From positions 17,799,084-17,863,083 of the forward strand of contig CM044964.1 of assembly GCA_024516035.1 (NCBI GenBank): 64,000 nucleotides of DNA. Reading direction: 5' to 3'. Origin of the DNA: Bactericera cockerelli (taxonomy: Eukaryota; Arthropoda; Insecta; Hemiptera; Triozidae). Both the position numbers and the translations under genes were made by a program. Shown here one piece after another: positions 6,001 to 59,524 of the stretch. Numbering within the stretch: position 1 is the stretch's first letter; every line of letters starts with the position of its first letter. The notes below the pieces were generated by a model, which saw only the letters and a list, made by a program, of their open reading frames with translations, made no database searches and was not told where the DNA came from.

Positions 6001-9000
6001 AGGTTTTGGAAAAGGCAAAGTGAGAGAAGAAGGAGATTTGAGAATGTGTCCACATAACAATAAGAGCGGAATAAACAGACGTTTTTGTAATACCTCTGTG
6101 GCGCTAAGTCACGGAATGCGTATTGTGTAAGATAGCGAAAACCAACGCTTTGCAACGACTCTTGAGATCGCCCTTAAAGTCATTATTTTTTTAAGGAAGT
6201 AGGAGTTCCAGAACCAACCAAATTCAACCATGAGGAAGAGGTTGAACAATGTCAACCCCAAGTAGGTTTTGGAAAAGGCAAAGTGAAAGAAAAGTGTGAC
6301 CACATAACAATAAGGGCGGAATTAACTGACGTTTTTGTAATACCTCTGTGGCGCTAAGTCACGGAATGCGTACTGTGTAAAATATTGAAAACCAACGCTT
6401 AGCAATGAGTCGTGATGAAGAATTTGTCTATTAATTTTGCCATTAAAGTCATTATTTTTTTAAGGAAGTAGGAGTTCCAGAAGCAACCAAATTCAACCAT
6501 GAAGAAGAGGTTGAACATTGTCAACCCTAAGTAGGTTTTAGAAAAGGCAAAGTGAAAGAAGAAGGAGATTTGAGAATGTGACCACATAAGAATAAGGCGT
6601 TATTAATAGACAGTTTGTAATACCTCTGTGGCGCTAAGTCACGGATTGCGTTCTGTGTAAGATAGGGAAAACGGACGCTTAGCAATGACTTGTGATAAAG
6701 AATTTGTCTATTAATTTCGCCCTAAGAGGTGAAAATGATTTGAGCATTAACCTCGCCTAGTGATTACTTTCCACTAAGGAGTAATAATTTTGACTGTGAC
6801 CTGACCGTTCTTGTACCTTGACATGAATGTCTAGGGCGGAATTAATAGATAACATCAATAACTTAAGTCGTTGGTAAGTGTCGGTTTTAACTATCTTACA
6901 CAGTACGCAATCGGTGACTTAACGCCACAGAGGTATTACAAAAACGTCTATTAATTCCGCCCCTAATGTCAACACTCGCATCAAGTTACCCACAAAACTT
7001 TGACTGTACCTTGACTTTCACAATAGTGTGCATCAGGATTTACTGGTTTAACCACTCTGAATTGATACTTTCACAACAACAAAAATAACATTATTCAAAC
7101 TATTGACTTACACAGTGATGAGCATGCCGAGCATGGCATGAGCCTGGGCATGCAGTTCGGGCAGCATGGACAAGAGGATGGCATGCCCGGACGTAACATC
7201 CAGGTTGGACAGAACAGGAGGGGTGACGCTCAGAGTACGGGCAACCTGGGGAGAGGAAACATAGCAGTATTGCTGAAAATAATGTATTTTATAAATGAGT
7301 ACATAGGTATTGAAGACACAATAAACTCATAAAATATGTACTTAAATTGAATGACATAATAATACTTTTTTGGGGGGGGGGCCATGTAAATGTCATATGA
7401 CGGCAAAGGAAATCCTCATGGATAAATAGCAATTTCTGCGACGGATGTACGAGGGGGGACCCAAAAGTAACGGGAATTAGGTGGTAGGGGGAACACGGAG
7501 GGGGGGATCGGGTTCTCCATTGATTCTTTTCCAAGCGGCTACTCTCCCAAGTAAGTGGGCAAAGTTCATTTGCTGTGAGTGCATTCGTTCGTCCGTGAGA
7601 ATTTTTCTAGTGAAACGACTTTTTCCGTTTCGGCGAAAAAGTGAAATGGCACCGTGAAATGGCTGAGTGCGGCGAGCAACGAGCGGCTGTAAAAATTTCG
7701 GGGTCATAGCCGTAGCACCATGATTCATCGCCAGTTATAACCTTGAGAAAAAAATCTGGGTCTTCATCCAACTGATTTTGCAGCTCCAGACAGGCCTGAA
7801 GTCTCAACGCTCCTTGTTTTGATCGTCGGAGAGGAGGCGAGGAACAAATTTGGCTGCAATCCCCTTCATGATCAAATCTTCAGTTAAAATCCTCTGAATT
7901 GAACTCCATGACTATCCAGACATTTCATAAAGTTGATCGATGGTTCTGCAAGGTCTTCACGGACAAGAGTGTCGATTTGTTCAATGTTTTTGTCCGTTCT
8001 TGAAGCCATTTCACGTTTTCGCCGAAACGAAAAAAGTCGTTTCACTAGAAAAATTCTCACGGACGAACGAATGCACTTACATCAAATGAATTTTGCACAC
8101 TTACTTCTAAGAGTAGCCGCTTGGAAAAGAATCACTGGAGAACCCGATTCCTCCCTCCGTATTCCCCCCACCACCTAATTCCCGTTACTTTTGGGTCCCC
8201 CCTCGTACAGAGATGAAAAACTCAAACCTGTAAACCCATCACCGAAGCTCGCCAGATAATGTTGGACTCTTACCAACTAAAACCTTTCCGACTATGACTC
8301 TTCATATGGGAAATGTCAACCGGAACCACGTGAATATTACTTCAGTTTGACGTAATAATACTGAGGGTTAACATTCAACACAAAATGAGCAGGAAAGTGG
8401 GCAGGACGAATGCGTACATGACAATACAAATCTAAAAACAAATATTATACCCATTAGGGCACAAAAAGAAACACCTTTGGGTTAGGAAAAATACATGTTA
8501 TTGTACGCAAATTAGTATCATTTTTTCAGAATGTTAACAGCTCAGTAGGCTGCTCATTTTTTCACTTCACTAATTAAAAAAGAAAGAAATATATAAGGTA
8601 TTGAAAAAAAAAATGTCTGAAAGGGTGGCGCCGCAGGTTCTCGTGTTTTTGAAACGGCTAGTACGGCCGAACGGAGGGGATGGCGGGGTCGACGACCAAC
8701 CCCTCTTGAAGGGTAGGAGGGGCAGTTTCAGTAACAATGCCGACCTGGTCCGTGGAGCATCGTGTTTTCGCTGTAGAGCAATTTCTGCGAAATAACGAAT
8801 CTATCGTTGCAGTCACGCGCGCCTTCCGCTGCCATTTCAACGTCCCACATCGTGGTGCTGTTCCCTATCGTGATTCGATTTTGGAGTGGGTACGAAAATT
8901 TCGTGAAACGGGGGTTCATGTGCACCGACTTGGAACAAGACTCAACCTCGAACAACAAGAACACCGGAGAATGTGGAACGTGTTAGGCTTGACTCCAAGA

Positions 9001-12000
9001 ATGCAGCGCCCAAGAAGGAAGTCATTTGATGGACATCATTGATCATAATTGAATATTTTTCTTTTCTTAAATAAAATGCCCTTGTTACTGAACATTTTAA
9101 AATTTATTTCAACCCGATACCTTCAACATTGACGATTTGACGACTGTTTCAAATTCACGAGGCATAGCTGCGCCACCCTGTATGGCAACCAGACAAAGAC
9201 AGGCAGCCTTTGTTCTAATTTAATACATTATATTTTGTTTATCTCCACTTCCGCATTGAAGTCTAGGACAGGAGAAGTAGCAGTAGAAGTTGAAGGTCTC
9301 TAGTTGGACTTTTTTTCCAATGAGTTACAATAAAAACAATGAATTCATCGATGTATCTGTCGTATATTTTTTGAAGGACTACCGCTTTGAATATGTGTTG
9401 CACTAAGAACACAAGTGGATGATGCCTGTGAAGCTCACATGAGGTTATTAATAACACTTATCACGCAAACACGATTAGGTAAAAGAAATAATAATTCATT
9501 TCAAATGTGAACAATTACCGACTGGGTTTTGTTTTGGTAATCTATTGATAATCACCGGGTTGCTGCTATTTGTTACAACTCAATTAATGAAAATGTTTCC
9601 TACTGCAACGCGAGGACAAACAAATAATTCAATAATTACAAGTGTGAGTTTTCTTGTCTTCTATTATAGATACTTCAGACTTTCTTTAGTGTTTCAAGTG
9701 TTTGTACGCCGTACTTTCATTCACCTCATTTAATTTCGTACATCTCACGATGTATTCAAATTTGAAGGATCCACCTTCCATATCTCTTCTTCTTGTCTTA
9801 CTTGAAAAATCAGGCCTAGTCAATTTCAATCGCAGGAAACGCATCTGGCAAAATAAAATACAAGACATTTTCTGTTGGTTTCAAATATTGTTCATTACCA
9901 TTTTTATGTTAGCTCAATTTAACTACATTATAAGCTTCTACGAAAAGTCTGAAAAGGAACTGTTACGGAGTATGAATGAATTTATCTACATTTTATTTTA
10001 CAATGTGTCCACGCTTATCATGTATCGAAAGTCTGAAGAATTGAAGAATCTGGAAAACTTCATGATACATTCTTTCAGTCACGCGGATCCTGATGTTATT
10101 TGCAAATATAGAAGAAGAACGTATGTGTTCCTCAAAACATTGATAATTTCCTACTGCCTGATGTGGCTTGCATACATGGTCGATTTACTTTCACCCAATG
10201 AAATTGATGTGCACCAACGAGTCCCATATGTTGAACAAGAATATCTGAAGTCAAGTAAAATATACCTGATGTGTGTCATCCTATTTTCTTTCGATATTTC
10301 ATCATGTTACTAGCGTTTCTCAATATGATTCCGTGTGTGATATTTGATCTCATCGCTCAGTACACTATACTATGCAACTACGCTGGAAAACTAGGCGTGC
10401 CTCATTACAATTTGGAAGGCAAAGAAATCATCTACGTAGATATTGAAGAGAACAAGTTTGTTCTTCGTTTGCAAACATTGAACAGAATTGAAAAAGGTCC
10501 CAGTCAGCAGACGTCAAGTCTCCACTCAAGTTCCTCTACTCAGAGAGCAACATACGAACAGAGCTATTTGAAGCAGATCATAAAGTTTCATCAGAAACTC
10601 TTGTACTTTCAAGGAGAGGTTAGTTTTATCATTTTATTTATTAACAAAGATAATCAATTTGGCCAAAGCGCACTGTATGCTTGCAAACACACCGCACTTC
10701 AAAATTCTACTTGCTGCTTCAAAAGTACACATACTTCTCCAAAATTCTACGTCCTCCTCGAAACGACTTTCTACTTAAATTTCAAGTTTTGCTTGAAATT
10801 TTACTTGCTGCTTCAAATTCTTACTTACTGCTTCAGAATTACACATGCTCCAAATTTCACGTCCTGCCTCAAAATTCTACTTGCTGCTTAAAAATTCCAT
10901 GTTCTGCTTCAAAATTTCATCAGAAACTCTTGTACTTTCAAGGAGAGGTTAGTTTTATCATTTATTTATTAACAAAGATAATTAATTTGGCCAAGTGGGT
11001 AGCGCACTAGGCTTGCAAGCACGGTGACTTGGGTTCGATCCCCAGCAGGACAAGATTTTTTCTGCTCTATACTTGGATGACCGGGGTTCACTTATACCAC
11101 GTGAGGAAAAATGAGTAGCTGCTTTAATGTGAGCAGCGATCGTGACGGAATTATAGGCAAATGATACACAAGAATATGAAAAAAAAGTGTCAACTGGCTT
11201 CATTGAATGCATGGATTATAGATTTTGCTAAGTGAGTATATTTGTAGAAAAAAAATAACGTCAACGCAACATTGGGCAATATATGTGGGACAATGTAGTA
11301 AACAATAAATTGAAAACTATAAAACAAGAAGTCGGAAGATGGGAATCTTCAGTACGCCAGACGAGATACGAAGAGGTAGTGCTTACACGTCTTAGAATTG
11401 GTCACACAAGACTGACTCACTCTTTCATCTTTACCAAGACCCCTCCTCCTGTGTGTACCTGTGGTGATCCCATATTTGATTCTGACTTCAATGAAAAAGC
11501 CATTCACAAGTTTTGTTCGAAATCCAGCGAATGTCTCCAAATAATCAGTAGAGTAAGTCCTTTATAAATTCTTATTTTCTTTCTTTTGAACATTTTTTTT
11601 CTCATGTATGTTGAAAAAAAACCTACAATGTAGTGAAAAATAAACGTTATTCCAAAATTATCATCATATTTGCGTCAGCTAATCATTTTATAAATAAAAC
11701 AAATTAATTTATTATGATACCTACCACTCTAACAGAATCTCGATAATCACACACGTGAGACTTGAACTATTGGCTCCCTAGTTAGAATTCTCTCTCCCTG
11801 ACATAACCACTTCACCACTAGGCCTTGCAGACATGTATTAAATGTTGCATAGTTTTTCTTTTCGTAAAATTTTGACAGCACCCCCAAACCAAATTCCCAC
11901 CGGTCGCGCCTGATCCCTACTGAACTCTACCAGCGAAGTGGACTCACTTATGACTTTTCTGAGAAGTATCAACCTCCTTCATCTTATCTAGACCTTGAGA

Positions 12001-15000
12001 GGATCGGCACGAACGACCATACAATAAATGGAAGTGCCTAATAATGGAGAAAAAAAATACTATACAACTTTTATGTACATTATATTAGTTGTTTTAAAGC
12101 CATTTAAAAATATATTTTTAAGAGATTTATTGAAAAAAACTTATTCTTTATAGAGACTGAACAAAAAGCAAAACAATTAAAAGTATGTACACTTAAATAA
12201 CAAAATGTAAATCACACATACTCGTATTCACATAACCGAAATTAACCGTAATTTCTGATGAAAACACGATTAGGTAGAAGAAATAATAATTCCCTTCAAA
12301 TGTGAACAATTATTGACTGGGTTTTGTTTTGGTAAACAATTGATAATCACCGGGTTGCTGCTATTTCATACAACTCAATTAATGGAAATATTACCTACTG
12401 CAGGAAGAGCACAAAGAAATAATTCAACAATAATTACAATAGTCAGTTTTCCAGTTCTCCATTTGTAGTGCCATCAAGTTCAAGTGTTTGTACGCCGTAC
12501 TTTCATTCACCTCATTTAATTTCGTACATCTCACGATGTATTCAAACTTGAAGGATCCACCTTCCATATCTCTTCTTCTCGTTTTACTTGAAAAATCAGG
12601 CCTAGTCAATTTCAATCGCAGGAAAAGCATCTGGCAAAATAAAATACAAGACATTTTCTGTTGGTTTCAAATATTGTTCCTTACCAGTTTTATGTTATCT
12701 CATTTTAACTACATTATAAGCATCCACGAAAAGTCTGAAAAGGATTTGTTTCGGAGTATGAATGAATTCATATTCATTTTACTTTACTATGTGTCCATGC
12801 TTATCATGTATCGAAAGTCTGAAGAATTGAAGAATCTGGAAAACTTCATGATACATTCTTTCAGTCACGCGGATCCTGATGTTATTCGCAAATATAGAAG
12901 AAAAACGTATGTGTTCCTCAAAACATTGATCATTTTCTATTGTCTGGTTTGGCTTGCAAATGTGGTCGATTTATTTTCACCCAATAAAATGGATGTGCAC
13001 CAACGAGTCCCATATGTTGAACAAGAATATCTGAAGTCAAGTAAAATATACTTGATGTGTATCATCCTATTTTCTTTCGATTACTTCATCATGTTACTTG
13101 CGTTTCTCAATATGATTCCGTGTGTGATATTTGATCTCATCGCTCAGTACACTATACTATGCAACTACGCTGGAAAACTAGGCGTGCCTCATTACAATTT
13201 GGAAGGCAAAGAAATCATCTACATAGATATTGAAGAGAACAAGTTTGTTCTTCGTTTGCAAACATTGAACAGAATTGAAACAGGTCCCAGTCAGCAGACG
13301 TCAAGTCTCCACTCAAGTTCCTGTACCCAGAGAGCAACATACGAGCAGAGCTATTTGAAGCAGATCATAAAGTTTCATCAGAAACTCTTGTACTTTCAAG
13401 GAGAGGTTAGTTTTATCATTTATTTATTAACAAAGATACTCACCTTCCAGGTAGGTAGCGCACTAGGCTTTCAATCACGCCCCGCTTCAAAATTCTACTT
13501 GCTGCTTCAAAAGTACACATACTTCTTCGAAATTCTACGTCCTCTTCGAAACTACTGTCTACTTCAAATTTCAAATTTTGCTTTAAATTTTACTTGCTGC
13601 TTAAATTCTACTGCTGCTTCAAAATTTTACTTTCGGCTTCAGAATTAAAAATGCTTCAAAATTCTTATTGCTGCTTAACAATTCCACATCCTGCTACAAA
13701 ATTTCACAGCCTTGCTTCAAAATTCCACTCTGCTACAAATGAATTCTGCTACAAATTCTGCGTCTATTTTAAAAATACAAGTGAAAATAAGGAAAATGGA
13801 AATAATATACGAGAAGATTTCAAAAAGATGCCTCTCCATCAAAACTGTTGACGAGGCAAAAGTCCCGGACATGGTTCCTAGTTGACCTGACACAGGGAGT
13901 GAAGAAAGTAACCTGCCATAAAGTATGGTGTACCTCGCCCTGAGAAGCCTCACATTGAGAAGAACCAACAAACCGTACTAAAAGCCATAGGCTCTACCAA
14001 ATGCAGGCAGATTCTTTGATTTCTAACGGGCATTTTATAAATAAATAAACATCTGATGTACAGAAATTTTCTGTTTTTCATTTCTTGTAAACTTTAATAA
14101 ATTTTCATTTACTGTTTCTTCTGATAACTCGGCCCCATTCAGGCTGGTTACTGTGAGTAGCTAGGATAGCATATTAGTAGCGAATGATCGAGAAAAAATT
14201 CTTTTGAGATGTGGCTATTCTAGTTGAAAGAACTATTTCTCAGAACGTCTGAAAATCTCATATTTTTCTTCGATATCGCTAACTAATATGGCCAGATGAA
14301 ATTTCTTAAACATCACCTTAAAACAATCGATTTAATGTAAAGGAATATTCTCCAAAAGTTCAAGATATCAAAAATTACCAAATTAAACCTTTTTTAAATA
14401 ACACAATTTCTCATTTTTCAGTTCGTACGACTGTTTGGTGCCAACGTGTGGTGTCAAACAATCATAAACTTTTCCGGTACGGCCATGTGTCTGATTCAAA
14501 TGGTCGGCAATCATGGTTCTATCATGCAGCCTCAGTTCTACGCTCTGATATCAATGCTCGCCATAATCAACCTGATCAGCTACTACTGGTGTCACTGCTC
14601 GGAGCTGCTGGATGACTGCAATGCAGAGCTCTGCCGGGCAGTGCGGGAGAGCGGATGGGTCCGGTGTGACCTGGAGACGAGACGACACCTGTGCATGCTT
14701 CTCCGGAGGGCGCAGAGAGCCAACCATTTGAAAATCTGCCGAGGCATGATCCAACTGAGAAAAGTTCATTTCCTGAGAATCCTACAGTTTTCGTACACTG
14801 TCTCAATTTTATGAGACACGTAGGCAAACTTTGATCGCCATGATCTGTCGTGTCTATAGTTCTAAGGTAGTGTGGTAGTTCTTTTTGAAGTAATATTTAA
14901 CAGTCTCACAACGGTATGGTTTAGTATTGATGAGGAGCCGCGGGTTTTAGTTAGGGTAGCAGCATGGATACCGGGCTGTCCATGTCTGAGTCCCACACTT

Positions 15001-18000
15001 TTCGGCATGAACTTCCCCTCCTCAAAAAAAAGTAGTGTGGTTCAAAAAGAGAGTCTTCTTCTTTGCGTGTCCATGATGGTTGTGTCATGGTGGTGGAAGG
15101 ATTGGTGGGATATTAATCCCTGTGGACGCCCAGAAGTAATTTTCTCGGCTCCTTCCGTGTCCTGTGTGTGGTGTATTGTGTTGTGTTATTTATGTATATA
15201 AAAAAAACTCACGAATAAAAATATATCTAAATTCCGATTAGGAACTTTTAATTTTGATGTTCTCTGCTTTGAATCTGACTGGTAAAAAAGAGGGTAAGAA
15301 ATTATGACTAAACAGGTCTCTGAAATGAGTGAAATTTGATAATTTTATTGTTGTTTATCCTCGTATACTTGTCCACGTGCAGGACGAAACAATTCGGTAC
15401 TCTTCGTGACTTCAGTTGCTTGTTTGAGACCTCTTGTGTAGGAAACAAATACTCGTCTTGACCTGTTTCGTCCATCATCTTCAAACAGTGAGCAGATATG
15501 AAATAACTGTGAGATAGAAAATTCATCAGAGAAATAAACCATTTTTAACTGTCGAAATCTATATCAATGTTTTTCAAGTCATCAGTTCTTTTATTGTTAC
15601 ATTCTTTCAGGTAAGTCACCCAGAGTTATTATTATTTTCATTTAACCATGATGATCTATTCAAATTAGAAGCCTATTTCTAACACAAATAAATGAGACTT
15701 TGTTTACAATGTGAGAGTAAAGGGACTCTTTCGTCTTATTATGCAGGGTTGGGTGAAGATTGCCACAGGCGATAACCCCGCCTTTAGGTAGGACATAAGC
15801 TTTATTCATCTTATTTCTTTATTCGATCTATTTTCTTTTTTTATAATTTCATTGTATGTTCTGTCAATATTGTACTTTGTCCTTACTAATAAAGGTAATA
15901 TAATAATAAATGATATATTGAGAACTGTATTGTATTACTTTCAACTTACCACACTCAGCACAGCCTCAATGTTCACGGTTTTGGGCGCAGGAAACGGAGC
16001 GGTCAGGTGGGTGCGAATGAGAGTGGATAGTACTTTGAAGGCGCGCAGCAAATGCTCGGAGGCGTGAAGTTTGCTGGTATCACGCGTGTTGGAATAGTAA
16101 CTCGGAAACGGAATCGTCACTTCCAGAGCTCTGATGGACGCAGGAATGGGGACCGTCTGAAATTGAAGAGTGGATCATTTGGTATACCGTTGCCTCGTTG
16201 CATAGTATAATAATAATATTTTTTTTTAGTATAAATACAAAGTGTGTATGTGCTCAACGTCATTCCTTATGGACAATAAACAATTTTGTGAGTGAGTTTC
16301 TGTTTTGCTGAACGTCTCATTAACACCTACGTAGGTCATTCAAGACGGGGGTTTTACCCTTCATTCGATGGAAACTTACTAATCAGCAAATAAATATCGC
16401 CTTGATTATACTGCTCGATTAGGACTATTAAGTCCCATTATTCCAGCAGTAAGCCCAAGACGTATTATTATGTGGCAAAAATCCCAAATGGGAGGGTAAC
16501 TTGTCTTGTCCCGGCTGGGTTTCGAACCCGCGACCTCTGGAATCTCTGGATTCACACAAATAAACAACTTTATACATTCTTGCTGGGGACGTTAAGCGTC
16601 TAACAGGGTTGATGTTAGGAAAGCCGTAAAATGTGGAAGAACGAGGAAAAAAGCAAAATGGCTAATAGTCAATTAAGTTCACGGTTAAATCAGCCCGTTA
16701 GAGACAATTTAGGTGGAAAATATGGAGGGCGCGTATAAGGTACAGCGAGTCTCCGTCGTCCTCAGTGCTCGTGATGAAAGGAAAATTCCACATCCCTGAT
16801 GCTGCGCTTATTATTATTATTAAATGATTACTAGATACAAAGACATGTACATGTACAATACAAATAATTATTATTAAAAAATGGAAATAATATAAGCAAT
16901 AAAATGGGAAAAAATAGATAAATACATATGTCCTAACTAAAGGGCGGAGTTATTAACTATGGCAATCTCTTCCACCCAGCCCTTACTATATGATGAAAGA
17001 GACGCGTCGAAAAAAATAAACAAATTAAAGCCAGCGTGAATGGCATGTTGAATACACCAGTTCTCATTCTGTTACTGAAGTTCAGCGAGGCTAGGACTTG
17101 GATGGGTGACTATTAGAATTTGAACCTTTGTGATGCTTTTTTCCTGGCCTGCTGGTTGTACATGTAACTAGGTGTTTAACTCATGCTTATAATATTGTTT
17201 TTTGGTTTAACGTCGCATTCAACTGCACGGTCATATCACGAGGGGGGTTTTACCCTTCATTTTTTTTTTTTTTTAAACAAGTTTTTTTCATTTATTTATT
17301 TATTTAATAACAATTTCACAAGCTTGTTCCTTACAACTAAGCATTTTACCAAGCATAACAAAATATTTTTATTCTTTAACATGTCTATTGGTTACAATAT
17401 TTATTTTAGCTTATTTTAGTTCTTAGAGGGTAAAAAGATCTAGCTATATAAAAAAAACCTCTTACAAATTATAATCTAAATTTCTGGTGATGACTTACAT
17501 TCTAGAGATGAAATAAATAAATTTTATTAAGTATAATTATGGTTTACATATGCATACATATTATTTTATGGGTGCCATTTTCACATCATGGGGACATATC
17601 TATGCTTAACTCTTTTATAAGAGTATTTTTTATAGCGGGTTTTACTGGGGTTATTTAAGTCATGTAAAAGTCGATTGTTAACTTTGTGTAAATTTTTGAA
17701 AAAATCGCTACTAATTTTGTCCAAATATGTTCTGATGTAATATATTTTAAGGTCGTGATGCATGTCTTGGATTCTTGTGTACATGGGGTAGTTTCCTATG
17801 ATTTTAAGACAGTTATTTTGCAAAACTTGCAGCTTTTTAACATTGGTATTGCATGTATTGCTCCAAACTGGGGCTGCATAGGAAATAACTGGTCTAATGC
17901 AAGTTGTATATAACATTTTTTTATTTTTGATGTTGAGTTTGGACTTTCTGTTAAAGATTGGGTAAATCAATTTCAGGGCTATGCAATATTTTTCTTTAAT

Positions 18001-21000
18001 TTTATTTACATGAGCACCAAACGTGAGCTTTTTATCTAGGTATACCCCCAGGTATTTCACAGTGTCGGACCAGTTTAAGGTTTGATCGAATACTTTTATA
18101 CTGGGTGGTATAAGTGGTCGTCTTCTAGTGAAAAATATGGCTTCAGTTTTTTTCTTTATTTATTTTAATTTTCCATTTTTGGAAGTATTTTTCTTGTTTC
18201 CTCGCAGATTCTTGAAGTCTTTTAACTATAGTATTGACCCGCCACGAGCTTGTAAAATTTGCTGTATCATCAGCAAAAAGACCTGTCTCAACATATTTTG
18301 ATTTTGGCATATCTGATATGTACAGGGTGTATAATCTGGGCCCCAAAATACTACCTTGGACTATTCCTGCCGTTATTTTCTTAGGTAGACTAAAAATATT
18401 TTCTAAAAATACTTTAAACGTTCTGTTACTTAAGTATGAGCTCAGCAAAAGTATAAGATACCGAGGTACGTTGTACTTTATGAGCTTGTACAATAAGCCT
18501 TTGATCCAGATGGTATCAAAGGCTTTTTCGACGTCTAAAAGTAGCATTCCTGTGTGCTTTCTAAGATTGAATCCATCCACAATGCGGTCAACCACCCTAG
18601 CTAGCTGAGCTGTGGTCGAATGGCGAATACGGAACCCGAATTGTTCATCCGGTAAGATGTTATTTTCTTGAACAAAGGCGTCTAGTCGCGTAGCAATAAC
18701 TTTTTCTACCACTTTGCTAATGGTGCTAAGCAAACTTATAGGTCTATAACTAGACGGCAGCCAGGATGGTTTTCCGGGCTTGTGGATAGGCACAACCATA
18801 GCACATTTCCATGCATCAGGAAAATATGAGTATTGAATGATAGCATTCACAATAGATACAAGAAAGTTTAGACCCACAAAACCAAGATTTTTAAGAGCCC
18901 GGGTTGTGACCTGGTCGATTCCAGGTGCCTTCCTATTTTTAAGATATTTTAAAATTGTACTCAGTTCTGTCTGATTACAATAGTAGTCACTCCAATTCTC
19001 TTCGGCTGTCGAGGGATCACTAGAACTAATGTAAGTATCAACTTTTCTTTCAACTTGATTATTAAAGTGAAATGAACCATAATGTTTTGTTAAATTATGT
19101 ACTTGCTCGAAATGATTGGCAATAGACTCAACTTTATCCTCTTTAGTGTATAGATAACTGTTGCTGCCCGGGTCTGACAGTAAGGGTGGTACAGAACTTT
19201 TATTTCTAGTAGTAACTACTTTTTTAACCGTCCATAAGTGTTCCGCTTTTTTAGTGTTTTTTAACCTTTTTGTCCATGCCAAATTTTTATTTGCAATTAA
19301 TAGCTTTCTATTAATTTTGTTGAATAGGGAGCTTAATTTATAGTACAAGTACAGGCGAGTTCTCTGAAATTTCCTGCGGAAGTAATTTTTAATTTTAATA
19401 AATAATGCTATCACACGTGACTCGCGAGTCAATCCATGCTTGTCGTTCTGAGTAAGGGGAACCGAAACACTCAATGACTGGGTAATACTATTAGTAAAGA
19501 TTTGTATTGCACCATCTATATCTGTTGAATTATTTATTATAGGAATACTATCGAGACAGGTATCTAATGTATATCGGAAGGTCTCCCAATCTGCTTTACT
19601 ATAGTCATATGTTTTATTGTTTGTATAGTGGGGAATTCTATTCAAAGTAAATACTACTGGGTTATGATTAGAACTTAATTTACTCAGGGCCCGTACGGAG
19701 CTCACTATAGAGGGGTCATCACTTACACCTATATCTATGACACTAGCTTTGTGATGACTAATGACTGGGTAATGTGTTGGCTCTTCAGGGCTTATTACAT
19801 AAATACATTTTTCGGTGCAGAATTTATTTAAGAGACAACCATCTCTATTTCGAGTGGTGCAGTTCCATGATGCATGTTTGGAATTTAAATCGCCAATTAG
19901 CAAAAAGTGTCCTATACCTTTTAAAATTTCAAGGTCAGACCAGCTTAATTTCACCGACGGAGCTTTATAAGCACACAGAATTGTTAATTGTTTAGAACCA
20001 ATTTTTATACATGAGCTAGTAGCCTTAAGGGAACTAAAGTTTAATGGTTTTCCCTCACTATACTGGATAGAGTTTTTGATTAAAAGAGCGACTCCGCCTC
20101 CTCTTGAGTTTCGATCACTCCTCAAGGTCGAGTACCCTCTAACTTTAAGTTTAAAAGTACTATCAATTTTTGTTTCTACTAGACCAATTATGTCAAAATT
20201 ATGTTCATATATTACGTATTCTAATTCATTTAGTTTTCCTTTTATTGAATTACAGTTCCAAAGTAAAATATTAATGGAAGAGTCTACCATTAATCAAATA
20301 TTTGAAATATACCTTCAACAACAATAATTACTTTTGAAAACGTATCTTCCGTTTCTTTGAGTTTGGCACCTATGTTTGTAATAGCAGACATAATTTTTGG
20401 CAGGTTTAGGATCTTGACTAGATTTTTGATCTCCTCGAACATACCCATGTTTGATTCTGTAGCAGTGTTAGGTGGCCTCCTTGAGCTGCGCCCCTGGCCT
20501 GGCTGTGTAGCTACGATGCTTGCCCAGCTGGTCCCTTGTGTATAGTGACGAGAACTTTGAGTGACTGGTTCCTTGCGTTGCGTGCTGACTTGTCTTGGTT
20601 GTGGTGTGGGTGCTTTGCGTTTCATTTCAACATTCTTCATATAAATTGAACAAGTTTTCTCGTTTGCTTGATGGTTTTCTCCACAGTTAGCGCATTCTAT
20701 GTTATCCACTACGCATTCCTTGACAGTATGTTCTCCCGAACATTTGAGGCATTTTATTTTGTGGTGACAGTTTTTACTAATGTGACCATATTGAAGACAT
20801 TTATAGCATTGGGTGATATCAGATTTATTTTTAAACTTGCTCCATGTCACCACACAGTAGCAAAGCCTGTTTACAGATACAATGTTCTTGACCATAGTTT
20901 CTTTCTCAAACACAACTGAGTACAAAGGGTACTGGCTAGTTGTTGGACTAATTTTCTTGATTTTAACTACTTTTAATCCTTTACTTGTAAGTTCTTCTTC

Positions 21001-24000
21001 TAGTTCTTTACTTTCGATTCCTTGTGGCAACCCGCTTACGACAAAGTTTGGTTGATAGTCTTCTTTTAGCGAAAATGAATGAAATTCATACTTGAAATCC
21101 AGATGGGCTACAGCCGCCCTGTGGTCCTCTGCATTGTTTACCCTAAGTAACGTTTTCCCAGCTCGGGACACTTTTATTGAAAAATCATTTTTCAATATTT
21201 TTTTTAGATTTGTTACTACTTCTCTATGGTTTTCAAGTTGTCCATTAATAATTATGGGTGGAATAGACTTTGTTTGTGTTGGGAAAATCTTCTTACTTTC
21301 AGTGGGATCGTCACTATCCTCAGTATCCAGATCGCTTAGAGGGTCAAACCTGTTCGCCGTTGAGAGAACGGGAGAGATTTTCTTTCTCTTTCGATCCTGG
21401 GCTGCATTTCTCCTGGTAGTCCTAGCGTCCGGAGTAGACATCACTCAGGTCACCGTTATTAATATTCAGTACAAAAATAATTCAATTTTCAAAATAAGAT
21501 GAGAAAAGATTGAAAGAAACACCTGAGTTATGAAACAAGGAAAAAATAATTTTAAATTGTCACCAGCACTACGTCTATGACTACGATGAGCTTTATACAG
21601 TACGAGCACTAGATAACAACTGAGCACTAGATTCATTCTCTGGAAACGCACAAATAGCCAGTGCGTTTCCAGAGAATGGAGGGTAAAACCCCCGTCGCGA
21701 TATGACCGTGCAGTTGAATGCGACGTTAAAACAATATTATAAGCATGAGTTAAACAGCTAGTTACTCGTACAACTCAGACTCACCTGTATCTCTGGAACA
21801 TCTTCTAACACGCTGTCCAAAACTTCATGCCCGTACTTGGCATGAATTGAACAGCTAGTTACTGGTAAAACTCAGACTCACCTGTATCTCTGGAACATCT
21901 TCAAACACGCTGTCCAAAACTTCATGCCCGTACTTGATCAGCTTGCACAAGGCTGTCTGCCAGTTGTCCCTGTAGAGGGAAGTCTGGTGTCCACCCCCAC
22001 CCAGTTGGGCTAGTAAAGCATGGCATAGGCCAGTGTGAACCAGGATAGTATCTTGGGAGTGCCATGTCTCTATGCACTGCAGCAGGAAGCGCTCTATGGA
22101 TTTCTGTTGAAATATAATATAATATACATATAATGCTTTTTCTTTGTGTTATTATGTCACAATTTTAGTGGGTAGCGCAGAATCATAGGACTTTACCACT
22201 TTAATTTACAATATCTTGTATTATTTTTTTGCATAAGATTCTGCCACTGGTCGCTGCTTCATATTAAAGCAGCTACTCATTTTTCCTCACGAGGTATGAG
22301 TGGACCCCGAACATCCAAGTACAGAGCAGAAAAAATCCTCCCCCGCTGGGAATCGAACCCAGGTCACCATGTGTGCAATGCCTAGCGCGCTAACTCGCTC
22401 TGCTACAGTGATTTCTGTTGAAATACATTCATAGTTAAGAAAATAAGAGGGGTCTGATGTCCACACCCAGTTGGGCTAGTAAAGCATGGCATAGATCAGT
22501 GTGAACTAGGATAGTATCTTGGAAATGCTATCATTGGCGGCCTTAACGAGGTAGGCGCTAGGAAGTGCATCCAGCTGTAAATGTGGAAGTAGGAGTGCCA
22601 GAACCAACCAACCTCAACCGTGAGGAAAACAATGCCGACCGCAAATAGGTTGCGGAAAAGGCAAAGTTAAAGAAGAAGAATATAAGTTTCACAGGCTCTC
22701 GTCATTATTTTGTTCATACATCTAATAATTATATTGCCTTATTTATGCTACCTGATTAGGACTAATGAGTCCCATTATTCCAGCAGTAAGCCCAAGACGT
22801 ATTATTATGTGGTCAAAATCCCAAGTGGGAGGATTACTTGTCATGTCCCGGCTGAGTTTTGAACCCGCGACCTCTGGATTACCAGTCTGATGCCTTGAAC
22901 ACTGGGCTACTGTTACATATCTAATTTCAAAATGCATGAAAATCTTACATAGTGAGAGAAGCAGGGTCCGTTGTAATACTTGAGGACTTTTTCCAGGCAC
23001 TTGAGTTTCTCACAGCAGACGTTGGGACTAGCAGGAACAGTTTCTAACTTCAAAATGAACTTGGGTAGTATAGATGACACAAACTGTTTCTTTACATCAT
23101 TTGAATGGTGTGTCTTTGAGATAAGAAGATCTGTGGAATAATGTGTAAATGAATAATCATATTTTTAACTTTGTTTACCTTGACCTTGAGGCCTCAGATA
23201 TTAATCTGATTTTGTACAAGATGCCCATATTGCCCATATATACTATGTATTTATGTTGTGTGTAAATTTAATTGTACAAATAAAGGCTACATTACATTAC
23301 ATTACATTACCTTGACCCAAATTATCAGTACAGTAATACAAAAAAACTTTTTGAAACAAATAATTGTAATAAATAAATAACATAATATAAAGAAGTATGG
23401 TTGAAGACTTTTTATACAGATTATTCATTCATTTGAGTTACTAGATACTATTGAGTGGTGCAATTTATTGTTTTTAAACATTAATACAATGTCTGATTTG
23501 ATAATTGAGTGACTACTTACACAAGTTGGAATAATCTACGGACTGAATACTAGCAGACAGTGAGTCACCGGATCGGATGCAGAATGACATCCAACTAATG
23601 GCATGGTTAAGCAGTAGCTCTTCACTACATTGAAGTATCACCGTATTCAGCAAGAGATGGTTTTGTTCAATGTTGATGTTAGCATTGAGGTTGGAGTTGA
23701 TTTGACTGATGAATGATGAATCCTGAGGGAATATGTTACAAGAATTATAGGTATGAAGGATTTTTTTATTGCTGATTTATATAACTGCTGTAACCTCATT
23801 AAAGGGACTTACAAGTGCTGGGCTTGTATAATTTCCCACAAGAAGAGAGGTTTACAACAACAACAAAAAATTAGTCTATGTAGATATATGTAGGTATTGA
23901 TAAGTGCTTTAGATAAGACCTATCTGGTTAGGATAAAATGATAACCTAGTTTCAGTAAACTGCTATCTATTCACACACAAGTTCTTGTTTCTTCCTTAGA

Positions 24001-26088: not shown

Positions 26089-26502
26089 TCACTTTTTGGC
26101 ATCAGCAGGAATTACAAAGGGATTCTCATCTGGCAAATTTGATTCCATCTTTCCGACAACACACTTCTGCAGGATAGCCTCGTAGTTGACCCAGGGATGC
26201 ACCTTGTTGAAGAGAGCTGTGGCATCGGATCCCGCTCCCTTCATTAGCTCTTCCCTCCCCCCAGGGTGGAAGTCCATATACCTTGTCACATTGTAGACCA
26301 CCCCTCGTATGCACATCCACACATTGTCCTCTTGGTTATGTTCTGCTAGTTGAGCTTTTGTTACCAAGATCCTGTGAGGGACACCTGCTAGGTTGACTCC
26401 TGTTTTTCCCAGTCTTATCCAATCCATGAGAGAGTGGCCTGGCTTCAGGGCAGTCCTGTTTCTGGGGTTGCCAGTGGCAGAACTTGGTTGCAGTGAGGAC
26501 AT
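26089..26502 (-). CDS. stand-alone cytochrome b5 domain protein, CYB5R4/NCB5OR-like
   Basis: The 137-codon ORF from the ATG at 26502 starts MSSLQPSSATGN. It contains LKPGHSLMDWIRLGKTGVNL, the N-terminal signature of NCB5OR (CYB5R4), then a cytochrome b5 fold with VWMCIRGVVYNVTRYMDFHP, the heme-binding HPGG and the second heme His in KVHPWVNYE. NCB5OR normally continues into CS and flavin reductase domains. Here the frame ends after IPADAKK at TGA. The end reads AAAAAGTGAGAC, which could also be a splice donor, but no downstream reductase exon was seen. It is an intact, intronless ORF, so it may be a genuine short protein, a first exon, or a retrocopy. An in-frame ATG at 26559 is less likely to be the start. 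Confidence 0.82.
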   Translation of the reverse strand: MSSLQPSSATGNPRNRTALKPGHSLMDWIRLGKTGVNLAGVPHRILVTKAQLAEHNQEDNVWMCIRGVVYNVTRYMDFHPGGREELMKGAGSDATALFNKVHPWVNYEAILQKCVVGKMESNLPDENPFVIPADAKK

Positions 26503-26559
26503 GGTACAGCAAGGTGTTTTATTTACAAAACCACAATCTACAATTTTAATAAGTAACAA

Positions 26560-26922: not shown

Positions 26923-26934
26923 AATTAACTCGAA

Positions 26935-27194
26935 AGCCAGCGTCGATGGCATGTTGAATACACCGGTTCCCTTCAGAACACCGAAGTTAAGCGACATCCA
27001 GCGAGGTTAAGACTTGGATGGGTGACCATTCAAATTCTAATTCTCGCGACGCTGGCTTTTCCCGGCCCCACTCAGGCTGGGTGAGGTCAATGTGAGTAGC
27101 AGGTTTGTGAGTTTCCTGCGAATGGAGGGTAAAACCCCCGTCGTGATATGACCATGGCAGTTGAAAGCGACGTTAAACCCCACTTAAAAAAAAA
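26935..27194 (+). repeat. complete 5S-rRNA-derived SINE (SINE3-like)
   Basis: The first 122 bp mirror 5S rRNA: AGCCAGCGTCGATGGCATG, TTGAATACACCGGTTC, ACCGAAGTTAAGCG (box A region) and GACTTGGATGGGTGACC (box C region). GACGCTGGCT closes helix I with the start. The body then has CACTCAGGCTGGGTGAGG and GAATGGAGGGTAAAACCCCC, ending in poly(A). A 12-bp target duplication AATTAACTCGAA flanks it (26923-26934 and 27195-27206). Confidence 0.93.
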
Positions 27195-27206
27195 AATTAA
27201 CTCGAA

Positions 27207-29949: not shown

Positions 29950-30142
29950 AGTGAGTGTAACCTGGAGGTCGGTAATGCTCGAAACATTCTCTAAAACCTA
30001 ACCCTCAGAGTCTTATTATTATATGATCACAAACTCAAATTAATAAGGAAAAATTCATGCACTGGGTGGGATTCGAACCAACGGATAACTACTTTACCTG
30101 GGTTACCAGACTAGCGCGCCAACCACTTGACTACCAGTGCAC
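29950..30142 (-). repeat. tRNA-derived SINE, family A
   Basis: Head and box B (GGTTCGAATCCC) on the minus strand, with the body at the left. A substitution-rich body suggests an older copy than 104-319. Confidence 0.7.
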
Positions 30143-31240: not shown

Positions 31241-33210
31241 CATTGTTTGAATAATTATTTAAATTGTACATTATGTCCATTTATATCTAATAAAGTGTAA
31301 AATAATAATAATAACAATAATTCAAATAAGAGGTAGGTATTTCTATTTTATAAATTTTCCCTTTAATAACTTAGATTTGTCAACATTGAGGTTAATTTGA
31401 GACGGAGTTTTGGACTCCATTTGAAAAATTACTTATAAACTTTTTACCCACATTAAGTTCTCCCAGCCTGGGTTGGGAATAAAAGACCACCAAGGTTCGA
31501 ACCATGTGGATCACCCACCAAATCTTCACCTCAGTGAACGTTTCTTATTTTCAGTGATCTTAATACGAGAAATGGTAAGGTGTTCAATATAGCTTTCGAC
31601 GGCTCATTCTAGCATTAAGAGATAGGTACATATTTTCCGTATTTGCGCCTAAAATAATAGATGACTCAAGGTTTAGGTATGTCCAGACTCCAGAGACATG
31701 TCACAGTCATTGATTCTTCGTTTTAACAAAAACAAATAATTTTGTCAAATGATTTGTCAAATAATCTATTGTCAAATGATGACAAAATGTTTGTGGTTAT
31801 TTCATGTTCGCACACGCTGGAACATCAATAGACCCGGTGTTGAATATTAGGGTTCAGAAGAACTATGGACTTCTGTAGCTAACTCCAAGATCTTTTACAA
31901 GTACCTGATCCAAAGGAAAGGTATCTCTAGCATGTCAACATATAGAGGACTGGGAGTTGAGGTGCCCCAATCCAATCCAAAGTTCGTTCGTTCCATGCGA
32001 TGAGCCAAAGTTCAGATTCCAACTTGTCAATTTGAAGATCCCAAAAGGGTCCACTTTATTCGTTGTGTTTGTTTAAGATTTTAGTTTCGCTTCGAGTGTC
32101 CATCAGGCTGGTCTCCTATCGGTAACTTTCAATAGTTGTTCAGTTTTGAAGATTGTGAAATAGATTCAATAGTTTAATTATTTTCCAAGTCTTTCTTTGG
32201 TGCAGTGAACAGCTTTTATTCGTCACTTCGTTATTATTAACTAAACTTCCTTATTATTTCTTGTTACAATATTTATTTTTTGTTTTCCGTGTTTTCCAAA
32301 TTCAACATTGCTAAATTCGTTAAATTAAAGCAAGCACCTACATTGTGCAGTGTTTTTGATTAACATAGTTATATCTATACGAATTAGATATTTAAATAAA
32401 ATAACTCACCAATAAGATAGGTATTCCCCTTGTTTTTTTGGATACTTAATGTGTGCTGCTTTCTAAATAAGTAGGTACATATCCAATAGGTAATTTACCT
32501 ATGTCATATGTATCTGAAGTAGTTATACATAGATAGTTACCTATAGTTATACTTTTAAACTATTGTACCTACTATCTAATAGTTAATACTTAACTACCAT
32601 AAAATTAAACAATTTCTTACCAAGTATAATTGCTACCTATGTCAGTTGGTTTTAATTGAAAGTGTTTTGTGTTCCTGGATCTGTGGGTTCTCACAGCTAT
32701 GGTATTGATGGACGTGGAAGATTTGGATATAATGGCTTTCGGTGAGTTTTACTTTAATCCCTGTCTTCTTCTCTCACTTTCCATTTTCTTTCTATCAGTA
32801 CAAGTATAAGTAAAAGCAGTGCTTTATTTAGACTGTCAGATTTTTCTAAATTTTGTATGCTATTTTTTATAATTTTTTGTTTGTACATAATTATGTCCTA
32901 TTAATAAAGAGTTTCATAATAATAATGTGTTCCTTAAGGAAGTCTAACCCGCGGTCTCTAGCAAACTACACCAGCTCAGTAATGATGACGTCATCACCAG
33001 ACGTGATTCATGTGAAATTAAACACCAAGGGTTGTGTTGTAATAATAATTCAGTTCCTACTTATGCTTCACTGTTTCATTGATGACAAACTTGTAATGAA
33101 CGCAACCAGGACTCGTACACAAGACTGAGTTTTGATTTTCCCCCATTTAGAGTTAAAAAGTTACCTTACATAATATTTGTGATAATCACAATGTGATAAA
33201 TATCACAATT
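31241..33210. other. no confident gene
   Basis: AT-rich sequence. A SINE-body-like CCCAGCCTGGGTTGGG and a box-B-like GGTTCGAACC occur near 31465-31505. A possible first exon at 32699-32741 is listed separately. Confidence 0.45.
32699..32741 (+). other. weak candidate first coding exon
   Basis: An ATG opens MVLMDVEDLDIMAF and is followed at once by a good donor, G|GTGAGT. No downstream partner exon was found, so chance is quite possible. Confidence 0.2.
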
Positions 33211-42754: not shown

Positions 42755-43435
42755 TAGCCCTTATCAGGCTAAGTGAGGTTAATGTGGGTAGCTGGGACTA
42801 TTCCCAGTAAATTCAGTATACAACCCCCATTTTTATTTTAAATAAATAAATCTGTTCTCCGAAGATGTGAGGCTGGTATATCTAGCCCTACTCAGGCTGA
42901 GTGAGGTGAATGTGGGTATCTGGTACTGTTCCCATTAAATTCAGAATGAAATTCCCATCCTCACTATCTCAAATCAGGACAGGGTTTTTCATGAACCAGC
43001 TATAACATAAAAAAAAAAAAAATATTGTAAGTTTAGAAGAAGTATTAAATGTTGCAAATTTAGACATTTTTTTACTTGTAATAAGTACATTTTTTACTAT
43101 AATGTGTTCATTAATTTTAATTTTTAAAACAGTAGCTTGCATTATTCAGGATTTGACTACTCCCCGTAATCTAAAGATTTTGGTTCATTTTTGTTGTTGT
43201 GAAACAGATAATTCTCCTTCTTTAGAAAATATGAGGCTGACATGTGTATACACAGCCTTTATCAGGCTGGGTGAGGTTAATGTGGCTACCTGGTACTATT
43301 CCCAGTAAATTCAGAATAAAATGGCCCAACCCAGGCTCAGTGAGCTTAATGTGGGTAACAGGTTTGTGAGTTTCCTGCAAATGAGGGTAAAACCTTGGTC
43401 ATGATATGACTATGCAATTGAGGTTAAACCCACTT
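42755..43435 (+). repeat. tandem degenerate SINE-body copies
   Basis: At least four versions of a body with a CAGGCTGAGTGAGG-like motif and CCCAGTAAATTCAG follow one another (about 42770, 42890, 43262 and 43325). The last continues into GGTAAAACC and GATATGAC. No 5S or tRNA head is retained. Confidence 0.65.
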
Positions 43436-44427
43436 TAATCAAACAAAAAAAATCTGGAAGACTGTTCTTTTTTTATGAATGCCATATTATAGTCAAAATT
43501 CTCTCTGGGTTCTATTTCCTAATTTCATCTTTAATAATCTCAACTTCTGTTCTGGTATTCTTTGTCTTCAGGCAGCCTGCTGCTGGGCAGGAAGATGGCA
43601 TTTCAGCACATCTCTCTCTTAATTACCTATATGTATAATAGATTTAGATTAATTAAGTCCACTTGGCTTAATTTATCTGCTGATTCTATGTATTATATTC
43701 TGTTTGTTTCATGTTTTTGTTTGTTACATATTTTTGCTTTTAATTCTTTTACCATGAAAATGGAAAAATATAAAACTGAAAAACACAAATTGTCTTCTTA
43801 TTTATTAATGTTAGCATTTCATCAACAGCTTTTCATCATTGTAGAACCAAATTGCCTTGAAATAGTATATTTTTCATCAAATCCAAATTAATTTTAAAAA
43901 TTTCCTGTGAAATCACAATTTTCAAATTTTTCCGGGCAATGGCGGTGGTATGAAATTCAATATGGAGCCCCTTAATTATTAATTAGGTATTCAATTTCCA
44001 AAACCTTGTAAAAATAAGCTTAATAAAATGCTCAGGGGGAGGAAATAGTAAGCTTATAAAAGTGTTTCTAAAATGTTAAGCCTTGTCAAAATAAGCTTTA
44101 TAAAATGTTTGAATCTTGTCAAAATAAGTGTTTTTAAAATCTTTTTAAACACTTTCTGTGCCGTCTGGGTAGTCTGCTGTGACTAAAGATAGAGATACTT
44201 TTAAGATGTGAACTTATGTGATACTTTTATTTTCATGTCAATTTTTTTTCTAATGTTTCTAAATTGATTGCATAAATATATTGATACCTTAGATTCCTTG
44301 GGTCAAATAAGCATGGATTATCTCTATCAACTAGGGGTCAGAAATGGACCCTAACTGAGTTAGAACTGACTTAAACTCGAAAAATTAATATTAAAAATTG
44401 AATTCGTATCCAATGTCCTATACATAT
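43436..44427. other. no recognised gene
   Basis: AT-rich sequence. The segment 44000-44150 repeats AAAATAAGCTTAATAAAATG-like stretches three times. Confidence 0.4.
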
Positions 44428-44600
44428 GTCCTAACTAAAGGGCGGGGTTATTGGTTATTGCCTATGGCAATCTCTTTATTCCAATTGTTTCTAGTCTCTT
44501 ATTGGGATTTTTCATTCTTTAAGGTTTATTCTTCTTTTTTTTTTTGTTTTGTTCTTAATTATTTTATTTTAAATTTCACAATAAAAAATATGTTCTATTA
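44428..44600 (-). repeat. LINE 3'-end-like repeat
   Basis: Minus-strand match to the 15745-15900 tail: GGCAATAACC, CCCCGCCCTTTAG and AGGACATATG, with an A-rich stretch at its left. Confidence 0.6.
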
Positions 44601-44639
44601 TAAAAATGTGTCGTATTATTTTTAGGTGGTTTTACAGCT

Positions 44640-45010
44640 AAAATTCCCAGGGTATTTAAAACGGTCTGTGGTCTAGAAGAGACAGTCCCCGAGAATGTTC
44701 TCGGAGACGGTTCCGAGAAGGCTCGGAGACAGTCCCCGAGAATGTTCTCGGAGACGGTTCCGAGAAGGCTCGGAGACGGTCCCCGAGAATGATCTCGGAG
44801 ACAGTTCCCGAGACCGATCTTGGAGCAATCTCGAGCACCAGCAATCGACGCTACGGTGCGGACGTAGACTGTCCCGTAGCAGTCTCCGAACGGTCTCCTA
44901 GGTGTCTCCGATATCATTTTTTGGGATCCGAGACAGGACGATACAATCTCGTTCCTAGATCTCGGAGATGGTTCCGAGACTGTTTTTTGTTTAAGGGGGA
45001 TCAAGAGACC
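44640..45010. repeat. CTCGGA-rich repeat, copy 2, with 47-bp tandem core
   Basis: AGACAGTCCCCGAGAATG repeats at 44680, 44727 and 44774 with a 47-bp period. Each unit contains the palindrome CCGAGAATGTTCTCGG. Both strands stay open for more than 60 codons by composition only. The copy ends TTTGTTTAAGGGGG. Confidence 0.75.
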
Positions 45011-45064
45011 CCAAAGAAATAACGGAGTCTTGTCTGGAATTTCCATGGAATTGTGGTTGATATG

Positions 45065-45437: not shown

Positions 45438-45650
45438 TTCACTGGTAGTCAAGTGGTTAAGGCGCTAGTCTGGTAATCTAGGTAGCGTAGAGTTCCGTTA
45501 GTTCGAATCCCACCCAGTGCATGAATTTTTTCCTCATTACATTGAGTTTGTGACCACATTATAATAAGACTCTGAAGGTTAGGTGGTAGAAAATGCTCTG
45601 AGCAATTCTCCTTCCACTGAAAAGTGTTCTTATTATTATTATATGTGGGT
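45438..45650 (+). repeat. tRNA-derived SINE, family A
   Basis: Head TGGTAGTCAAGTGGTTAAGG, box B AGTTCGAATCCC, body GGTGGTAGAAAATGCTC and a (TTA)n tail. The head is cloverleaf-like but fused to the SINE body, so it is not a tRNA gene. Confidence 0.8.
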
Positions 45651-59130: not shown

Positions 59131-59146
59131 CTGACTACAATAATTT

Positions 59147-59404
59147 TTTTTTTTTTGTGGGGTTTTAACGTCGCTTTCAACTGCCATGGTCATATCACGA
59201 CGGGGGTTTTACCCTCCATTCGCAGGAAACTCACAAACCTGCTACTCACATTGACCTCACCCAGCCTGAGTGGGGCCGGGAAAAGCCAGCGTCACGAGAA
59301 TTAGAATTTGAATGGTCACCCATCCAAGTCCTAACCTCGCTGGATGTCGCTTAACTTCGGTGTTCTGAAGGGAACCGGTGTATTCAACATGCCATCGACG
59401 CTGG
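59147..59404 (-). repeat. complete 5S-rRNA-derived SINE (SINE3-like)
   Basis: Reverse-orientation copy of the element at 26935-27194, differing at only a few positions. The 5S helix I complementarity is kept (AGCCAGCGTC against GACGCTGGCT). A 12-bp target duplication CTACAATAATTT lies at 59135-59146 and 59405-59416. Confidence 0.93.
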
Positions 59405-59524
59405 CTACAATAATTTAGGTACTTATAATATATCCTCACTCCTCAGGAGTTTCAGATAAACTTTTAGATAGGATTTTGTGTAATCAACTTCATATCTAGT
59501 TTTTCTTCCTTAATTTTCTGATCG

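Follow-up and report, generated by a model that had tools for sequence, protein, structure and literature searches.

Bactericera cockerelli very probably harbours a recently active, non-autonomous SINE3 element with a 5S-captured head, in which the predicted 5S rRNA fold is preserved and strengthened with compensatory changes. The classification as a 5S-headed SINE (SINE3) is firm. Two young copies are present in the window, the 64,000 nucleotides of DNA analysed. Rfam cmscan assigned both heads to RF00001 (5S_rRNA), covering model positions 1-120 of 120, with 63.5 bits for copy 1 (26936-27057; E 5.4e-11) and 68.6 bits for copy 2 (59284-59405; E 2.4e-12). A sequence-only reading of this DNA had proposed a 5S-like head over about 122 bp with internal promoter regions and both strands of helix I, followed by a poly(A) and a perfect 12-bp target duplication. 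The covariance-model scan that it had named as a test placed both heads above the gathering score of 38. The head contains boxes A, IE and C, the helix I strands of copy 1 form an exact inverted repeat of 13 nt, and the 12-bp duplication is exact (Table 1). The near-identity of copy 2 also held, with 98.1% identity to copy 1 over 261 aligned positions, four mismatches and one gap, whereas its limits had been drawn at 59147-59404 instead of about 59146-59406. The last GAA of the 5′ duplication of copy 1 may represent the first three element bases. The window has 14 more diverged, partial matches to the element (E below 0.001); some of these may instead be copies of a tRNA-headed relative with a common body.

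Table 1. Positions of the 5S-headed SINE copies and their parts in the window.
Feature	Position	Strand	Remark
Copy 1, full element	26935-27194	+	Head, body, poly(A), target duplications
5′ target-site duplication AATTAACTCGAA	26923..26934	+	Exact direct repeat, 12 bp
5S rRNA-derived head with promoter boxes A, IE, C and full predicted 5S fold	26936..27057	+	RF00001
Helix I 5′ strand, paired to 27047-27059	26933..26945	+	Exact inverted repeat
Helix I 3′ strand, overlapping the beginning of the shared body module, then a TTTT run	27047..27059	+	
Body module common to a tRNA-headed SINE of B. cockerelli	27046..27142	+	Local alignment
3′ tail GTGATATGACC...GACGTTAAACCCCACTT, presumed recognition by the partner LINE	27143..27185	+	
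Poly(A) tail, end overlaps the duplication start	27186..27196	+	
3′ target-site duplication	27195..27206	+	Exact direct repeat
Copy 2, young	59146..59406	-	Head 59284-59405; 11-bp duplication
Copy 2 flanks TACAATAATTT	59136-59146 and 59406-59416		11-bp duplication
Old diverged copy, head and body start	17029..17149	+	72% identity
Old diverged copy, near full length	31367..31601	-	64% identity
Older piece, body and tail	43323..43443	+	78% identity

The surroundings of the copies contain other features. Just upstream of copy 1, a frame with a cytochrome b5 domain (26089-26559, minus strand; Pfam Cyt-b5) resembles Cyb5r4; its named database matches included Gryllus and Fopius and do not point to a particular host. 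Two odorant-receptor-like frames (9702-10891 and 12488-13648) are very similar and probably arose by tandem duplication. The first is divided between two frames; the second, which had no Pfam match, had one named homologue, from Diaphorina citri, with 26% identity. Four tRNA-like matches, at 232-314, 1861-1940 and 30058-30140 on the minus strand and 45439-45521 on the plus strand, reached 26-36 bits with the Rfam tRNA model, one of them under the gathering score, and resemble further SINE-family heads. Tandem GGAGACGGTTCC-like repeats at 44576-45046 form a long inverted repeat with a sub-threshold mir-3199 match.

The assembly (565.0 Mb, 1,032 contigs) has at least 13 contigs of chromosome scale (23.6-65.4 Mb for C1-C12), and psyllid assemblies have 13 pseudo-chromosomes, with 567 Mb for B. 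cockerelli (PMC12203342). Its 16 COX1 matches each span at most about 63 of 436 positions and give no usable mitochondrial gene. A search of the assembly for the element, as the sequence-only reading had suggested, yielded thousands of matches. The first 31 bases of the element matched 8,289 places with at most three mismatches, the reversed control none; a second element pattern matched 8,264 places, an overlapping set, again with no match of the control. At least 100 exact matches to the 31 bases lie in the initial 12 Mb of C1; at an even density, the total would extrapolate to about 4,700. Divergence was low: the best 40 of 853 candidates, the query itself included, were 99-100% identical. 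A set of 29 young copies comprises both copies of the window and 27 of the remaining 39 of these best-matching hits. In 25 of them, the locally aligned part has no substitution against the consensus, indels uncounted. One unselected copy, present in 200 kb of random sequence (60 stretches drawn, 20 fetched, 11 contigs), was 99.2% identical. Target duplications of at least 8 bp, mostly 8-15 bp, flank 23 of the 29 young copies, compared with 2.6% for shuffled flanks, and were not seen at this length in the other six. A poly(A) of 9-33 nt is present in all 29. Upstream of AGCC, AA occurs in 27 and a G at -3 in 16 of the 29 copies, and the element therefore seems to start as (G)AAAGCC, slightly ahead of the first 5S base. 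Near-identity, duplications, poly(A) and abundance together identify a SINE with a recent burst. The earlier proposal that an insect genome contains a complete and young SINE derived from 5S is supported by the cmscan, the near-identical copies, the duplications and the thousands of matches. A 34-mer of the young head had no exact counterpart in viral contigs.

The body had been described as unrelated; a stretch of 97-98 nt of it also occurs in a tRNA-headed SINE of this insect, according to a local alignment with a rough consensus of four tRNA-SINE copies. The shared module starts at GTGA.GCTGGC, within the 3′ strand of helix I. The tails of the two SINEs differ. The tail of the tRNA-headed SINE contains GGCGTTAGGAAGGGCATCCAGCCGTAAAA, which resembles RTE tails, and the 5S SINE ends in GTGATATGACC...GACGTTAAACCCC-poly(A). 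An older form of the latter tail had 3,332 matches with at most one mismatch (control 0), and the tail also occurs on truncated pieces. Very short tail-only pieces (L049, L051, L052, L059) begin near GTGATATGACC, where the modules meet, and may represent either extreme 5′ truncation or a mini-element of their own. The presumed partner LINE would be one ending in GTGATATGACCATGCAGTTGAAAGCGACGTTAAAC. A small search by eye, covering 260-700 bp of upstream sequence at 32 tail loci, saw no LINE. At one of these, L051, the search extended to 6 kb, where the frames belong to a Gypsy-like LTR element and not to a LINE. A Jockey-like LINE of the window was rejected as partner, being without this tail at its end. 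It occupies about 17275-21500 on the minus strand with a poly(A) at the 17261 end, and was recognised by Pfam matches to RVT_1 and an endonuclease and, by eye, a frame with CCHC-like knuckles. Two inverted repeat pieces with a SINE-like tail and CAATATTATAAGCATGAGTTAAAC flank this LINE (window 17149-21780).

The 32 tail loci, chosen by the older tail and taken in order along C1, revealed subfamilies: 16 have a short head and three a long one, and the remaining 13 comprise truncated, headless and unclassified loci. Among the 32, three pairs look mutually copied (L057/L058, L073/L074, L078/L084). The short head is without about 30 nt, and the deletion includes box C. A 35-mer of the short-head junction matched 7,574 places with at most three mismatches (control 0). 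Among 20 short copies, fetched as exact 35-mer matches in order along C1, 17 extend to the 5′ end. Of these 17, seven are flanked by a duplication of 8 bp or more and ten showed none, as raw counts with chance repeats included. Three of the seven with duplications, L122, L127 and L130, are 99.0, 98.6 and 98.1% identical to the short consensus. Duplications and high identity indicate that the lineage without box C was itself copied, partly recently. A B-box-like alternative promoter in the short subfamily found no support, the best match having three mismatches in nine positions. In the short consensus, a predicted 7-bp hairpin replaces the lost arm, and the three-way junction is predicted to be closed. 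For the old-long subfamily, 20 of 61 exact 35-mer matches were fetched. This stretch of the old-long consensus was therefore fixed by the choice of copies, and its first bases rest on 8-9 of 22 rows.

Host 5S genes reached 104.8-114.9 bits among the best 47 scored of 53,589 first-look candidates. These 47 best matches are located on six contigs (C1, C2, C3, C5, C8, C10). They do not form a single tandem array; some are close neighbours, in either orientation. The old-long head is identical to host 5S at 99 of 117 positions and the young head at 88 of 117, which fits descent of the head from a 5S gene of the lineage and later divergence. Box C of the young SINE equals that of host 5S over all 13 bases compared; boxes A and IE differ in places, with assumed positions and limits for the three boxes. 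Judged by sequence, the young family carries a type 1 Pol III promoter and would be transcribed from it.

The young head alone is predicted to fold into the 5S architecture of helix I and two arms. The folding energy is -48.2 kcal/mol for the consensus (z -4.6) and -49.2 kcal/mol for L030 (z -5.25), a copy near-identical to copy 1; in each of two runs, none of 200 shuffles of the young head was as good. The old-long consensus has -49.4 kcal/mol (z -5.0) and the short consensus -40.0 kcal/mol (z -4.2), and a 5S-like three-way junction is predicted for all three consensus heads. Host 5S has -37 to -39 kcal/mol with z values of -1.9 and -2.1, and 11 and 7 of 200 shuffles were as good. The sequence-only reading had considered the intact helix I to be notable. 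This was a good lead, and what it led to is evidence for maintenance of the whole 5S fold.

Between host 5S and the young head, seven of the 24 pairs in helices I-III changed: four doubly and compensated, one singly and compatible, and two broken. Compensation occurred at 5-115 and 9-111 (helix I), 17-62 (helix II) and 30-48 (helix III). In simulations, at least four compensated pairs had a P value of 0.00046 for helices I-III jointly, and the single helices had P values of 0.012 (I), 0.27 (II) and 0.066 (III). The broken pairs of the covariance-model alignment, 14-66 and 15-65, are located at the base of helix II, where the predicted fold re-forms three pairs in another register. Helices IV/V show two compatible single changes and two broken pairs in this alignment. 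Within the SINE, from old-long to young, 13 substitutions separate the heads; five of six changed pairs still pair and two are doubly changed (P 0.006 each, simulation). By comparison, 34 of 91 changed pairs still pair in 25 dead copies (Fisher P 0.037), most of which also contributed to the old-long consensus. A variant of the old-long to young test restricted to common pairs gave no broken pair (P 0.001); it is biased towards kept pairs, and the unconditioned version with one of six broken (P 0.006) is therefore preferred. If one old copy, L056, is taken as the starting point instead, helices I-III of the young head have no broken pair and only one double change (P 0.28). The tests within the SINE lineage are weaker than the comparison with host 5S. 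Random mutants of old-long with 13 substitutions were as stable as the young head in 22 of 1000 cases and shared as many pairs in 6 of 1000. All these P values are from simulations with simple or empirical substitution spectra that do not treat CpG separately, partly conditioned on predicted structures, and CpG decay can imitate paired changes. Selection on the RNA fold of the head is supported, not proved, because the events are few, the structures are predicted, and CpG decay or capture of a variant 5S gene may have contributed.

The life cycle of the element is probably as follows. The head was captured from a 5S rRNA gene of the B. cockerelli lineage and would supply the internal Pol III promoter. 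A LINE enzyme would reverse-transcribe the RNA from the tail/poly(A) end, and insertion generates the short target duplications. The 5S-shaped RNA itself may be useful, for instance by binding 5S-binding proteins, presumably uL18/RPL5, uL5/RPL11 or TFIIIA, or by docking on ribosomes near the nascent LINE protein. The fold could aid retrotransposition, as the Alu domain does; if the selection is real, docking on 5S-binding proteins or on the ribosome would be the simplest mechanism, by analogy with the proposal for Alu RNA and SRP9/14. Tentatively, and at somewhat below an even chance, we propose that the fold is selected and even strengthened, that it, rather than a complete promoter, is indispensable, and that the element is a ribosomal-RNA mimic, the 5S counterpart of the Alu domain, which would gain access to LINE protein by recruiting 5S-binding proteins or the ribosome.

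An ordinary SINE3 with selection on the promoter boxes only, in which the fold is an undecayed leftover of the 5S ancestry, is also possible, if on the doubtful side. It would account for the identical box C in host 5S and young SINE and is compatible with the few pair changes within the SINE lineage and the non-significant excess of double changes from L056 to young. Against it, the predicted fold surpasses that of host 5S in stability, and none of 1000 random host 5S mutants reached the old-long stability of -49.4 kcal/mol. In helices I and III, the compensated pairs are outside the boxes, whose limits are assumed, and pair 17-62 is half in box A. The subfamily without box C keeps its predicted closed junction at 7,574 matching places. 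This branch, with a predicted 7-bp hairpin in place of the arm, still multiplied, which argues that the fold was not kept for box C.

The paired changes may instead have arisen in variant 5S genes that were then captured or recaptured, which would shift the selection from the SINE to ribosomal 5S. We consider this unlikely. In its favour, the differences from host to SINE alone cannot be placed on the SINE branch, and the 5S sample comprises the best 47 matches scored with seven loci read. Against it, young and old-long share SINE-only features, such as a longer and altered 3′ arm, and the head was therefore not simply replaced. Their consensus sequences nevertheless differ at 17-62 (C-G to U-A) and 30-48 (A-U to G-C), and the SINE states occur in none of the seven host 5S loci read, six of them aligned and the seventh, L067, compared by eye. 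5S retropseudogenes, tandem duplication or an assembly artefact in place of a SINE family are very improbable; nothing was found in favour of these, and the copies are dispersed on many contigs with their own flanks, mostly their own duplications (23/29) and a common non-5S body and tail. A SINE family with a maintained 5S fold remains the preferred reading.

An insect 5S SINE had been expected to be notable in itself, a view that the literature does not sustain. Publications describe SINEs with a 5S head from Tribolium, from Helicoverpa, Plutella and other Lepidoptera, from Aspergillus and from vertebrates, as far as the accessible text of these reports goes (PMC8010984, PMC3272025, PMC5063351). 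SINE3-1_TC of Tribolium castaneum is a 5S-headed insect SINE too, known here by citation and not by sequence comparison (PMC8010984, PMC3272025). The lepidopteran HaSE3, PxSE4, PxSE5, LaSE2 and CsSE2 have, like the psyllid element, a head from 5S that contains boxes A, IE and C, duplications in some copies and up to thousands of copies (PxSE4 4,415); their 3′ ends are (TGA)n or (ATGT)n instead of poly(A) (PMC8010984, PMC3272025). In Helicoverpa, HaSE3 has body and tail in common with the tRNA-headed HaSE1, and the 5S/tRNA chimera described here recalls it (PMC3272025). The psyllid element differs in that its tail is not that of its tRNA-headed relative. The accessible text on the lepidopteran elements describes them by promoter similarity and not by fold conservation (PMC8010984, PMC3272025). 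Compared with these descriptions rather than the sequences, the psyllid element stands out by the full predicted 5S fold and by one subfamily without box C.

In SINE1-1_EBu of hagfish and in Alu, the head fold is kept by compensatory substitutions and has been argued, in the accessible text, to be needed for efficient retrotransposition; this fold is the 7SL/Alu domain with SRP9/14, in contrast to the 5S-like three-way junction here (PMC7245038). AfuSINE3 of Aspergillus fumigatus is also 5S-headed with predicted structures and has five copies, with a head well preserved over positions 1-64; a test of selection on the fold was not seen in the accessible part of that report (PMC5063351). Cassandra and Ajax have a 5S-derived internal promoter in a mobile element too, but are LTR elements, and the predicted structure of Ajax is unlike 5S according to its author (PMC10886601, accessible text). 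Two psyllid genome papers treat SINEs as a class only in the text available (PMC12203342, PMC13003732). In the literature searched, subscription papers aside, no title concerned 5S SINEs of psyllids or fold selection in 5S SINEs. On this basis, a head that keeps and strengthens the predicted 5S fold appears to be new among 5S SINEs, and so does a subfamily without box C with a predicted closed junction.

SINE heads are usually explained as promoters. The young family, the series of subfamilies and the branch without box C make a role of the fold in 5S SINEs testable by comparison and assay. The apparent spread of a 5S-headed element without box C bears on how such elements are transcribed.
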